A DNA stretch of 49,132 nt from positions 1 through 49,132 of the forward strand of contig JAKAAT010000005.1 in the NCBI GenBank assembly GCA_021802205.1. Direction: 5' to 3'. The first letter of the stretch is position 1; each line of letters starts with the position of its first letter. Below are positions 24,928 through 30,297 of the stretch, piece by piece. The stretch comes from Thermoplasmata archaeon. Its GTDB lineage: Archaea; Thermoplasmatota; Thermoplasmata; Thermoplasmatales; Thermoplasmataceae. Under the pieces are notes generated by a model. It saw nothing but the letters and a program-made list of their open reading frames with translations, ran no database searches and was not told where the DNA came from. The position numbers and the translations under genes were made by a program.

Positions 24928-25683
24928 ATGACATTAAATGCTTCAGTTGTTGTACCTGCCCTCAATGAGAGAGAAAACCTGAAAAGACTTATACAGGAAT
25001 TAAAGGGTGAAAATGTAAATTCAATATATGTTATAGATGATATGTCCGAAGACGGAACCGAAATGCTAAAAAAAGAATATCCTGATGTACATTTCCTTAT
25101 AAGGCACGGAAGATTGGGCTTAATCAGTGCAGAGATAGACGGCATGAGACTTACCGATTCTGATTACGTTGTTGTTATGGATGCTGATCTTTCCCACAAA
25201 CCCGAAGATGTTCCTAAAATGATAGAAAAAGCCATAAACACTTCATCAGATCTCGTTATAGGATCCAGATATATGGAGAGTGGAATCACCAACGATGAGT
25301 TTATCAGACAGATAATAAGTAAAATAGCCAACACACTCTTCAGAATATCATTTGATATTCATTTACATGACTGTACTTCAGGGTTTAGGGTGTACAGCAG
25401 AAAGGCATGCAATTTCATAGGAAAACAAATAGATATTGAGAATGGGTATGTTGGTCAGGTAGATATAGTGAATAGATTAAATCAGGCTGGATTTAAGATT
25501 ACCGAATATCCGGTAGTTTTTGTGAAGAGAACAGAGGGAAAGTCAAAACTGAAAATGCGTGAAATTGTAAATTTCTTTCTCTTTGTAATATATAATAAAA
25601 AAATGTTCAGATTTCTACTTGGTTTTATCGTGTTTTTAATCGGAATGGTTATCCTTTCATACATAATTATCCATTTTGTCTAG
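24928..25683 (+). CDS. GT2 glycosyltransferase, dolichyl-phosphate mannose synthase type
   Basis: The family transfers mannose or glucose from a nucleotide sugar to dolichyl phosphate for protein glycosylation. The GT-A start SVVVPALNERENL, the metal-binding Asp85-x-Asp87 in VMDADLSHKPED, and the DCTSGFRVYSRKA block are typical of DPM1. A single hydrophobic segment near the C-terminus (about 225-250) would anchor it in the membrane. Its last 27 nt overlap the convergent CoA-disulfide reductase gene. Sugar specificity is not determinable. Confidence 0.9.
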   Translation: MTLNASVVVPALNERENLKRLIQELKGENVNSIYVIDDMSEDGTEMLKKEYPDVHFLIRHGRLGLISAEIDGMRLTDSDYVVVMDADLSHKPEDVPKMIEKAINTSSDLVIGSRYMESGITNDEFIRQIISKIANTLFRISFDIHLHDCTSGFRVYSRKACNFIGKQIDIENGYVGQVDIVNRLNQAGFKITEYPVVFVKRTEGKSKLKMREIVNFFLFVIYNKKMFRFLLGFIVFLIGMVILSYIIIHFV

Positions 25684-26973
25684 GCCAAGGCTTGCGGCTA
25701 TAATAATAGGATCCCACACCGGCCCGTATTCAGGCTCATAACCCATATCATTGTATAGGATATCGTAGAGGGTCATGTTACTATACAATATTGTGGCCAT
25801 AACGTTCAGCCTCCATGCTGAATTTTCCTTCCCTATAATCTGGGAACCAAGAAGCCTTCCAGATTTCTTTTCGAAAATTATTTTTATGTACACATCTGAT
25901 CCATGCAGGTAATTGGATTTATCTTTAGCTTTTATAAAGACACTATCAAAATTTATTCCCAGTTTCTGGGCTAGAGAAGTATTGATTCCTGTGTATCCGA
26001 CCTGATATCCGAAGATGTTGATTATCGTGGTCCCCAGTGCACCTGGGAATATCCTTTTATTACCAAAAACATTAATTCCGATTGTTCTGCCCATCTTATT
26101 GGCAACCTGTGCAAGTGGATAATAGCCATAATAGTTAGTAACATGGTTCTTTGTTGCTACATTATCTCCGCCGGCATATATATCAGGGTCTGAGGTCTGT
26201 AAATAGTCATTAGTTTTTATTAGATTATCAGGTGTTAATTCAATGCCAGCCTTTTCAGCAAGTTCCACAGATGGTTTTATACCCGTTGCAAAAATTACAT
26301 AATCACTAAAATAGGATCCTAGGGTTGTAGTAATTTTATATTTTTCCTGAATTTTTGAAATTGATACAGGAACCGAATTATATTCAATATCTGGATTATT
26401 TTCCTGTACAAGATTATTAAGTACGTTTCCCATATCAGGATCCAAATGCGGAAGTAGATATTCATGTTTTGATATCAATTTAACATGGTATTTTTTTGAT
26501 AGTAATGAAAATAATTCCGTCCCTAGAACGCCAGCACCTACTACTGTTACCTGGCTCACTCCGGATAATTCGCTGTTCATGGAAATTGCACTTTCCATAT
26601 TCCTCAGCGACACCCCGTATTCCTTAAATTCATCTGGTATATTAGGTGTTGCGCCGGTGGCAAGTACAAGTTTATCATATTTATAGCTTTTACCGTTTGT
26701 ATCAATATATTTTTTCCCGGCATTAATGGAGGTTACAGTAGAATTCGTAATTACATTTATTCCCCTATGTTCAGTGAATTCACTCACAGGATAATGTAGC
26801 AAATCTTTAAAATCCTGGAAATAACCTGCCAGATAATAGGGCATACCGCATTCAGCATAAGATACATATCCCGTCTTTTCTATTACCGTTATTCTGGCGC
26901 TGGAATCCATACGTCTGGCCTTGGAAGCCGCAGACATACCGGCTGCACCACCACCAACAATTAGTATATCCAT
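25657..26973 (-). CDS. CoA-disulfide reductase/NADH oxidase-type flavoprotein
   Basis: This 438-aa FAD/NAD(P)H oxidoreductase has VGGGAAGMSAASKAR for FAD binding and a single redox-active Cys42 in YAECGMPYY, the hallmark of CoA-disulfide reductases. The NAD(P) motif VVGAGVLGTELF is at about 150, and the second FAD block YAGGDNVA is near 272. The C-terminal dimerisation domain is complete. It could keep coenzyme A reduced or act as an NADH oxidase; a persulfide reductase role is also known in the family. No rhodanese domain is fused. Confidence 0.9.
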   Translation of the reverse strand: MDILIVGGGAAGMSAASKARRMDSSARITVIEKTGYVSYAECGMPYYLAGYFQDFKDLLHYPVSEFTEHRGINVITNSTVTSINAGKKYIDTNGKSYKYDKLVLATGATPNIPDEFKEYGVSLRNMESAISMNSELSGVSQVTVVGAGVLGTELFSLLSKKYHVKLISKHEYLLPHLDPDMGNVLNNLVQENNPDIEYNSVPVSISKIQEKYKITTTLGSYFSDYVIFATGIKPSVELAEKAGIELTPDNLIKTNDYLQTSDPDIYAGGDNVATKNHVTNYYGYYPLAQVANKMGRTIGINVFGNKRIFPGALGTTIINIFGYQVGYTGINTSLAQKLGINFDSVFIKAKDKSNYLHGSDVYIKIIFEKKSGRLLGSQIIGKENSAWRLNVMATILYSNMTLYDILYNDMGYEPEYGPVWDPIIIAASLGLDKMDNYV

Positions 26974-27222
26974 GCATGTAAATTCTAATTCTATATTTAA
27001 GTTTGTTAAGATAGAACATTCATTTTATGGGATGGAACGTAATTACAGTGTTTAAGCTGCGAATTTGGAATATTTCTAGAATTTTTTAAAAAGCTGTTAC
27101 CTATCAAAATATATATTAATATTATTCTGTTAATAGTATCGTGTTCAAATCCTGAGACATTAAGCTGATCACGGACAAACATAAGAAAAGTACTTTAAAT
27201 AATACTAATCAAGAAAATAGTA

Positions 27223-27393
27223 GTGCATTTAATTTTACGCAGATTATTTGATATCTCAAGGTATGGCCAAAAAATAAAGGTGCTTGATGTAACCGGAAAT
27301 GGGAGATTTACTGTATATAGTGCGGCCCAGTATGGTTATGAAACAGGATATCTACACAATTCCTGTTTGATAATCAATTTTAAAACTTTATAA
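27223..27393 (+). pseudogene. short GTG frame resembling a truncated SAM methyltransferase
   Basis: The frame begins with GTG and runs 56 codons. It contains KVLDVTGNGRFTVYSAAQYG, which resembles motif I (VLDvGcGnGrf) of class I methyltransferases, and then stops. A TATA-like tttaaata at 27194-27201 is centred 26 nt upstream, so it could still be transcribed as a leaderless mRNA. I read it as the 5' fragment of a lost methyltransferase gene. A real 56-aa small protein cannot be excluded. Confidence 0.3.
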
Positions 27394-27422
27394 TTTATAA
27401 GAAATGGGAAAACGTTGTTCCT

Positions 27423-27659
27423 GTGATGAAAATAGAATCTGGATATACGATCCAGGAATGCCATGTATATCATAAACAAAAAACAGACCAAGAAAAAACG
27501 ATTTTATATGCTTAAATTGTGTTTATTCAAATGAAGCAGGATATGTCGTTTCATTGAAAAGAGGATAAAAAGCCAATATGCCCTTAGTGGTGAATATTCT
27601 TTATAACTAATTGATCTTCAGAACTACAGGTTCCAATGCTTTAACATCCGGCACTTGAC
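27423..27659 (+). pseudogene. tnpB: tnpB remnant (zinc-ribbon end of an IS605-type TnpB)
   Basis: The frame from 27423 reads ESGYTIQECHVYHKQKTDQE, matching the TnpB block YTSQTCSxCGHxxKxxR with the second Cys changed to Tyr. After a frameshift near 27497 the sequence continues NDFICLNCVYSNEAGYVVS to a stop at 27566. This matches the second half of the zinc ribbon (FxCxxCGYxxNADxxAA). A scar of the element's terminal repeat follows at 27627-27659. Order and spacing fit a decayed tnpB 3' half. The RuvC-like catalytic part is missing. Confidence 0.65.
27627..27659 (+). repeat. degenerate TnpB right-end scar
   Basis: The block caggttccaatgctttaaca, then tccggcacttgac, aligns loosely with the right-end blocks at 2121-2158 and 32921-32967 (caggaagccacatgcgttagg, ending atgtcac). 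Its position about 60 nt after the TnpB zinc-ribbon remnant is where the element end should be. Confidence 0.4.
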
Positions 27660-27714
27660 TTAATACCCCATAATATGAAAATTATGAGTTATTCACTTGA
27701 ACGATACAGACAAA

Positions 27715-27789
27715 TCATTCATCATCGTCATCGTCGTCTTCTTCATCATTGTCGTCATCATCGTCATAATGAATTGTGAAACTGACCAT
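27715..27789 (-). CDS. 24-residue acidic micro-ORF with strong Shine-Dalgarno
   Basis: On the minus strand an ATG at 27789 opens 24 codons and ends in TGA. The peptide starts MVSFTIHY and continues as an almost pure run of 15 Asp/Glu with one Asn. A full AAGGAGGTG (27795-27803) sits about 6 nt before the ATG, the strongest ribosome binding site I see in the window. Upstream TATA-like sequences occur at about 27825 and 27860. It is divergent from the esterase gene. No family is known to me. The acidic tail could bind metal ions or basic proteins, or the GAT/GAC run could be a simple-sequence accident. Confidence 0.5.
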   Translation of the reverse strand: MVSFTIHYDDDDDNDEEDDDDDDE

Positions 27790-27794
27790 TGATG

Positions 27795-27803
27795 CACCTC
27801 CTT
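27795..27803 (-). promoter_or_regulatory. perfect Shine-Dalgarno of the acidic micro-ORF
   Basis: The minus-strand sequence AAGGAGGTG is fully complementary to the 3' end of archaeal 16S rRNA and is ideally spaced from the ATG at 27789. Most genes in this window have no such site and look leaderless, which makes this one stand out. Confidence 0.6.
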
Positions 27804-27910
27804 ATTCTGTAATAAATATTGCCATTAATAAACTTTGTTATATTATTTCTGTTATTTTTATAGACTTCCAAAGGCGGTGAAATCTTTATATTGAAATAAC
27901 ATTGACTATC

Positions 27911-28852
27911 ATGTATAAGATTAAACAGGAGGAATTATTAATACCGTCCTTGGAAAAAAACCCACTGGGTGATCCGGCTATAAGGAAAATAATAATAATA
28001 GAAAATAAGGTCAATAATAAAACTCCGGTTCTTATAGGACTTCCAGGATTTTTCGGGTCAGGCAACAGCTTTTTGAACAAAAATTACACCAGCTTCGATT
28101 TCATAGACTTAATTATAAGGCTTCAGGATAATTTTAGTTTTATAATTGTTTTACCGGATACTATGACACAGTTTGGTGGCAATCAATTTGTAGATTCTAC
28201 TGCTATAGGAAATTATAAGACCTATATTACTAAAGATCTGATGAAATATATAAAAATGAAATACGGCGAGAGAGATATATATCTTTTTGGAAAATCTTCT
28301 GGCGGGTTCGGTTCAATTTCCCTCGTAATGGATCATCCAGAAATTTACAGTGGATTTATAGACGTTTCCGGCGATTCTTATTTTCCTTACTGTTATATGC
28401 CTGATTTTGCCACAACCTTTATGGAAATCAGGGAATCGGGTTTGAAGAACTTTATTGAAGAATACAGAAAAAGCTTTACACATACACAGAATCAATTGAC
28501 GGCATATAACGTTATAGCCATGGCAGCGTCTTATTCCCCTCAGGGTACAGAAATAGACCTTCCATTTTCCATGGAAACTGGGGAGCTAATTCTTGATGTA
28601 TGGAATAGATGGATGAAATTCGACCCTGTTAATCGACTTGTAAATGAAATTGATCAGTTAAAGGGGAAAAAAATAATCCTGCAGACTGGAAATCGTGATG
28701 AGTTCAGAATAAATATAGGAATGGGGATAATTCATAACATGCTTGAAAAAGGTGGTATAATACACACATTTAAGGAATATCCTGCCGGACATTTTAATAC
28801 AAATTATTTTTATATAGATTCATTCCCGGAAATACTGGAAAAATATCAATAA
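27911..28852 (+). CDS. esterase/alpha-beta hydrolase
   Basis: This 313-aa protein resembles the putative esterase (EstA/esterase D) group of alpha/beta hydrolases. Nucleophile elbow is GKSSGGFGS (about 120), with the acid likely in GNRDEF and the base His in AGHFNTNY. The oxyanion region is LIGLPGFFGSGNSF. It has no signal peptide. I prefer the ATG at 27911 because a TATA-like ctttatatt lies about 24 nt upstream; an in-frame TTG at 27902 is less likely. Substrate unknown. Confidence 0.8.
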   Translation: MYKIKQEELLIPSLEKNPLGDPAIRKIIIIENKVNNKTPVLIGLPGFFGSGNSFLNKNYTSFDFIDLIIRLQDNFSFIIVLPDTMTQFGGNQFVDSTAIGNYKTYITKDLMKYIKMKYGERDIYLFGKSSGGFGSISLVMDHPEIYSGFIDVSGDSYFPYCYMPDFATTFMEIRESGLKNFIEEYRKSFTHTQNQLTAYNVIAMAASYSPQGTEIDLPFSMETGELILDVWNRWMKFDPVNRLVNEIDQLKGKKIILQTGNRDEFRINIGMGIIHNMLEKGGIIHTFKEYPAGHFNTNYFYIDSFPEILEKYQ

Positions 28853-30163: not shown

Positions 30164-30215
30164 CCATATAAAGTCTTAAAATTTGTTTTGATCCTATTAC
30201 TTAAAAGATTTAAGC

Positions 30216-30297
30216 GCGGGGAATGGGATTTGAACCCATGCTCTCATTTCGAGAAACAGCTTAGCAGGCTGCCGCCGTACCACTGGGCCATCCCCGC
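30216..30297 (-). tRNA. tRNA-Ser (anticodon GCU)
   Basis: On the minus strand the 7-bp acceptor stem GCGGGGA pairs with TCCCCGC. The anticodon loop CTGCTAA gives GCT, reading serine AGC/AGU. A long variable arm (CTC-GAAAT-GAG) marks a class II tRNA. The T arm ATGGG-TTCAAAT-CCCAT is intact. CCA is not encoded. The gene starts only 3 nt after the stop codon of the small ORF at 30301, and no TATA box is visible at the right distance, so it is probably transcribed through from upstream. Confidence 0.95.

Follow-up and report, generated by a model that had tools for sequence, protein, structure and literature searches.

A predicted aspartate-rich microprotein gene conserved in two families of the Thermoplasmatales

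Prothymosin alpha is a polyanionic disordered chaperone, and the C-terminal acidic tail of SSB is of the DDDIPF type. Acidic runs have also been implicated in translation. Asp/Glu runs near the N-terminus are reported to destabilise the translating ribosome in bacteria and eukaryotes, more so at low Mg2+ (intrinsic ribosome destabilisation, IRD). One such report describes abortive translation at N-terminal D/E runs in yeast and in a human-factor system, alleviated by Mg2+, a strong effect when 10D was placed after either 5 or 30 residues, and an avoidance of N-terminal D/E enrichment in proteomes (PMC9718836). A regulatory precedent is mgtQ, an acidic 8-aa ORF controlling mgtB in Salmonella (PMC8092293).

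The window, i.e., the whole stretch of 49,132 nucleotides analysed from a Thermoplasmata archaeon, harbors a micro-ORF on the minus strand, with its ATG at 27789 and its stop ending at 27715. The head MVSFTIHY is followed by 16 residues, of which 15 are Asp or Glu. The features of the locus are as follows.

27715..27789, minus strand: microprotein ORF MVSFTIHYDDDDDNDEEDDDDDDE, 24 codons, ATG to TGA; homologous frame in relatives, with third-position-biased substitutions.
27795..27803, minus strand: Shine–Dalgarno (SD) sequence AAGGAGGTG, 5 nt before the ATG; kept in relatives.
27825..27836, minus strand: TATA-like promoter element AAAGTTTATTAA, 36–47 nt upstream of the ATG, predicted from the family motif.
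25657..26973, minus strand: pyridine nucleotide-disulphide oxidoreductase (CoA-disulfide-reductase/NADH-oxidase-like), downstream, context only; Pfam Pyr_redox_2, E 2.8e-51.
27902..28852, plus strand: putative esterase, divergent neighbour, context only; Pfam PF00756, E 8.1e-10.

The initial annotation had singled out this 24-residue frame and called its SD the best in the window, which was borne out by the coordinates, the translation and SD scoring. SD sequences pair with the 3' end of 16S rRNA. AAGGAGGTG is present as a single copy in the window, both strands counted, and its 9-base match compares with at most 6 bases in 48 non-overlapping ORFs of at least 120 aa under the same scoring. The initial annotation had the impression that most starts of the genome look leaderless; within the window, no SD-like match was found in 17 of these 48 ORFs, and another 17 showed only 4 bases. 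The core is not unique, as GGAGGTG-N3-8-ATG was found genome-wide at 22 sites vs 10 for the reversed control pattern. The anti-SD pattern GGNTCACCTCC yielded one site, not assignable to 16S. A T5 run is absent just after the micro-ORF stop in the window. The micro-ORF is separated from the oxidoreductase by 741 bp (26974–27714) vs 35–402 bp in other members of the genus, and no listed ORF of at least 60 aa lies wholly within this gap. The esterase recurs as divergent neighbour in only part of genus g1. A tRNA gene at 30215–30297 (minus strand) was the sole Rfam match in the window at the gathering threshold.

A homologous frame was detected by profile, patterns and the ACG cases described below in 84 of the 117 genomes of the order, many of the genomes counted being incomplete. 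These comprise 69 of the 77 genomes of f1, the family of the window, and all 15 of f3, two families which we take to be Ferroplasma/Thermoplasma/Cuniculiplasma-type archaea; all 19 genera of f1 and all 4 of f3 (23 genera) are represented. The micro-ORF was found in none of the 25 genomes of families f2, f4, f5 and f6. Among the 84, 74 were matched by a profile built from 29 members (alignment A1), several of these matches not being individually read; 6 more were recovered by pattern (G010, G014, G021, G104, G109, and G115, with G109 counted from the pattern match and not from a full ORF), and 4 carry ACG (G083, G084, G088, and G089, all of genus g12; loci L302, L303, L306, and L307). A strict pattern consisting of GGTG, a start codon, five consecutive Asp codons and a sixth codon [G/A]AY was present in 29 of the 117 genomes and its reversed control in none of them; a looser pattern, which admitted look-alikes, matched 50 of the 117, with 3 for the reversed control. 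DNA search of 61 genomes revealed genus homologs with 75–88% identity, several spanning the promoter region, the SD and the ORF, and the same design was seen at the loci read in the rest of f1. Weak DNA-search matches in other families consisted mostly of the Asp run alone and were left out of the count.

At the class level (300 genomes), the profile matched only 5 genomes outside the order (G160, G283, G304, G311, and G348), all in open frames of 111–869 codons, and these were not counted. The gene is normally single-copy, two profile matches being found in only G032, G033, and G074, and the second match of G032 was weak (10 residues). The f1 genomes with no match (G012, G029, G031, G082, G085, G091, G097, and G113) have a completeness of 62–93%; reading the sequence ahead of Lhr in G012 revealed no such ORF. 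In a scan of named genomes, 18 of the best 80 of 119 stretches were in frame by the stricter reading, 7 of these 18 being ORFs of at most 40 aa, and of these 7, among the matches listed, 4 are archaeal members (L174, L206, L207, and L232). Rejected candidates included acidic parts of larger proteins (L012 and L016), Hsp20-like N-termini (L096, L102, L103, L109, and L053, with L054 representing the same place in G047 as L103), and pattern matches that were unrelated or out of frame (L050, L051, and L052). L055 was left out of the member set without being read.

The 67 distinct ORFs assembled encode 19–26 aa, arranged as a short variable head and an Asp-dominated tail. The head is hydrophobic or aromatic, often with KRR or RRDY, and weakly conserved, as exemplified by MVSFTIHY, MFVPFWYG, MLFNYRPR and MVDYVYGK. 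The acidic run begins at residue 8–14 in all 67 members, reaching up to 14 consecutive Asp codons, and the last residue is Phe in 38 and E, D, N, L, S or V in 29. The family contains 752 Asp and 106 Glu residues as compared to 6373 and 7610, respectively, in the large ORFs of the fetched loci, i.e., a D/(D+E) of 0.88 vs 0.46, and none of those large ORFs showed 7 acidic residues within a stretch of 10. GAC accounts for 331 of the 752 Asp codons of the family vs 37% in background ORFs. It had been asked whether the Asp run varies as a simple repeat; it mixes GAT and GAC and is broken by Y, F, E, N, S, or G residues, which does not support such a repeat.

In 56 close pairs, of equal length and with an identity of at least 75%, 60, 80, and 376 differences were counted at codon positions 1, 2, and 3, respectively, where pairs share ancestry and the differences are not independent events. 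Split by region, the counts were 34/59/122 in codons 2–8 and 26/21/254 in the tail. This distribution points to coding selection on the microprotein frame in relatives. The initial annotation had named loss of the ATG/SD and frame-breaking indels in the GAT/GAC run as observations that would speak against the ORF. The start position and SD were kept in relatives, with a 6–7-base SD match in 59 of the 67 members, a 4-base match in 4 and none in 4 by our scoring, and no such indels were seen in the 67 members, the changes being of whole codons or exchanges among GAT, GAC and GAA. Start codons, picked by best SD and uncertain for L141, L143, and L144, were ATG in 47, TTG in 13 and GTG in 7. Unsupervised search upstream identified a 12-base A/T-rich TATA-like motif of 8.8 bits at about −45, its first base lying 40–51 nt ahead of the start codon in 56 of 66 members, whereas ten shuffled controls gave 5.3–5.9 bits at scattered positions. 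As a TATA box usually lies some 25 nt from the transcript start, the position of the motif predicts a short leader containing the SD. The micro-ORF is predicted to possess its own promoter and translation start signals. Beyond the stop, a T5 run within 60 nt was present in 33 of the 54 non-f3 members as compared to a mean of 18.4 and a maximum of 28 in 500 shuffles.

The four g12 genomes mentioned above have ACG where relatives have ATG, GTG or TTG, and no ATG, GTG or TTG occurs in frame from the upstream stop up to the Asp run. The ACG stands a few bases past GGTG, the frame and SD are kept, and 42 of the 52 pairwise differences among these genomes fall at third positions; ATC precedes the ACG in G083 only. 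Initiation at ACG would be the simplest reading of these sequences, loss of translation being the alternative. The four genomes offer a direct test case for a non-canonical start codon in archaea.

The nearest gene downstream of 46 distinct peptides was Lhr in 23, CoADR-like in 14, GNAT in 5, another same-strand gene in 3 and an opposite-strand gene in 1, so that it lies on the same strand in 45 of the 46 contexts. Pfam names for the common neighbours are Lhr-type helicase (DEAD, WH_Lhr), Pyr_redox_2 oxidoreductase, Toprim, RNase-Z-like lactamase, GNAT, cytidylyltransferase-like and TRM5/TYW2. Three contexts occur in three species of genus g15: a gene read from its sequence as MoaC-like, one likewise read as exonuclease-III-like, and a DUF2079 gene in convergent orientation. 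In the last of these (G096, locus L143), the ORF, with a weak or absent SD, is placed between a gene reading away from it and the convergent DUF2079 gene, with no same-strand gene downstream. Within genus g1, the distance to the same oxidoreductase was 35, 36, 103, 105, 151, 245, 402 or 741 bp; the spacing is 28–741 bp among relatives with the oxidoreductase neighbour and about −20 to 741 bp over all contexts. Members of f3 have the ORF abutting GNAT or running into it, by 17–20 nt in most of them if the earliest possible ATG is taken as the GNAT start, and Lhr follows the ORF at 3–13 bp in g12. Owing to this proximity and to the same-strand arrangement in 45 of 46 contexts, co-transcription and cis effects are likely there. 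No single regulated gene or operon was found to follow the ORF consistently, as Lhr, CoADR-like, GNAT and other genes, and in L143 a convergent gene, occupy the downstream place. The varying downstream genes and the one genome without a same-strand downstream gene indicate an autonomous gene and not a gene-specific leader. The reading we favour from these arrangements is an autonomous gene that may be co-transcribed with its neighbour in some lineages.

It is almost certain, as judged from the comparison of relatives, that the micro-ORF is a functional coding gene. This comparison supports a conserved frame, SD and promoter position, the taxonomic range and the changing neighbours, and we read the microprotein gene as autonomous, normally present in one copy, and probably already there in the ancestor of f1 and f3. 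The earlier suspicions that such a frame was unlikely to be idle and would be missed by gene finders are borne out at the level of sequence, the former through the conserved start position, SD and frame. A TATA-box promoter of its own would drive transcription of an mRNA with a short leader, and translation would begin at a strong SD site, releasing a free 19–26-residue peptide, presumably disordered, with a short hydrophobic/basic head and an Asp-dominated tail. Most likely, though with no more than an even chance in our view, this peptide would serve as competitor, chaperone or tether, a soluble trans-acting polyanion bound to a positively charged surface that handles nucleic acids. The initial annotation had put forward a nucleic-acid mimic and a metal buffer, which are further possible roles. 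Lhr helicase is a candidate partner only because it is the commonest neighbour. HTa, of the HU-type DNA-binding family PF00216, is a plausible basic partner and was found in 114 of the 117 genomes of the order, among them genomes from families lacking the microprotein; since the two ranges differ, the microprotein is not explained as an obligate HTa partner. Many genomes of f4 and f5 carry two or three PF00216 copies. The weakly conserved head is unexpected if the peptide has one specific protein partner and counts against action in trans. Going further, the peptide could be a lineage-specific, normally single-copy, free polyanionic regulator of an RNA/DNA helicase or the ribosome, kept despite the hazardous position of its Asp run, with ribosome destabilisation possibly part of its function (self-limiting synthesis) and with ACG at the start position in four g12 genomes; we offer this fuller proposal tentatively, as possible rather than probable.

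The main rival to a polyanion acting in trans is an IRD leader or sensor, in which aborted translation of the Asp run would serve as a readout of Mg2+ or of the state of the ribosome, with control exerted in cis on the downstream gene or the mRNA. The acidic run starts in every member in the region where IRD is reported to be strong, it is strictly conserved while the head is only loosely so, the nearest downstream gene is nearly always on the same strand, and mgtQ provides a precedent. The conservation of the run at residues 8–14, where IRD is expected, implies that it is either tolerated at a cost or used. Yet there is no fixed target gene or spacing, one context has only a convergent neighbour, and T-runs occur past the stop; IRD acts with Glu as well as Asp, yet Asp makes up 88% of the acidic residues of the family, and the available parts of the cited literature contained no demonstration of IRD in archaea. 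The suggestion of a translated leader in the initial annotation is not supported, on the same grounds, as the downstream genes and spacing vary while the ORF persists, one genome has only a convergent downstream gene, and T-runs are enriched past the stop. Control in cis through IRD is, on balance, doubtful, with an appreciable minority chance.

Less probable, and in our view unlikely, is a cation buffer, with the Asp tail as ligand for metal ions such as Mg2+ or Ca2+. Cultured members of the order are acidophiles with a mildly acidic cytoplasm, in which Asp would be preferred over Glu since it is ionised, and the Asp preference of the family over background fits this. However, a buffer would need neither the narrow length range nor a kept head, it demands very high abundance, and the members of f2, f4, f5 and f6 do without the microprotein. 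An attenuator leader sensing charged tRNA-Asp, comparable to the leader peptides of amino-acid operons, in which the regulating codon occurs in runs, would agree with the consecutive Asp codons, the short ORF and the strong SD; it is very improbable, as the downstream genes share no common aspartate link, Glu, Tyr, Phe, Gly, and Asn break the run, and one case lacks a same-strand downstream gene. A chance or simple-repeat ORF without function, to which the low-complexity tail and three unrelated bacterial micro-ORFs of at most 40 aa with Asp runs among the matches listed (best 80 of 119) might point, has a negligible chance given the third-position bias, the empty reversed control, the lack of broken frames among the 67 members, and a start position, SD, promoter spacing and frame that are kept order-wide.

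Pfam and NCBIfam returned no family at E ≤ 1 for 27 of the 29 members scanned, the other 2 being too short, and no earlier report of the microprotein was found in the open-licence PubMed Central literature. The family appears to be undescribed, and public protein databases may hold members as unnamed hypothetical proteins. A 19–26-residue gene common to 23 genera and too short for the usual gene finders is a test case for core genes missed by archaeal annotation. As its Asp run sits where bacterial and eukaryotic ribosomes reportedly fail, the archaea that retain it also allow one to ask, as a natural experiment, if such sequences are tolerated or exploited by archaeal ribosomes.

Several known systems share parts of this design. 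The mgtQ ORF and other IRD substrates resemble the microprotein in combining a very short ORF with acidic residues early in the chain. However, mgtQ differs in having 8 aa, the acidic ones being at positions 2 and 5, and in belonging to one operon with RNA stem-loops (PMC8092293), whereas the microprotein is 19–26 aa long, mostly acidic, and followed by a changing gene or none. The u-proteins of Haloferax are likewise short, conserved and often-missed archaeal genes; they reportedly extend up to 70 aa and many carry C(P)XCG zinc fingers, whereas the microprotein is a charge-block peptide without Cys. A similar layout is seen in Hsp20-like N-termini of the same order such as MVYRRRREDEEDDDDFF and MVWKKKRRDEDEDDDW, observed in genomes of g3 and f5 (L096 from about 5045 on the plus strand, L109, L102, and L103), in which MV, a basic cluster and an acidic run stand behind GGTG; these are the first residues of a 184–189-aa protein, Hsp20 by sequence reading, and not a free peptide. 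A resemblance to the SSB tail would lie in an acidic run that often ends in Phe (38 of 67 members) and in a helicase as the commonest neighbour of the microprotein; the SSB tail differs as the microprotein is a free peptide and not a protein tail, and its terminal Phe is replaced in 29 of 67 members. Prothymosin alpha is comparable as an acidic, presumably disordered chain that could bind basic nucleic-acid proteins, but the microprotein is far shorter and archaeal, and the comparison is one of character and not of sequence.
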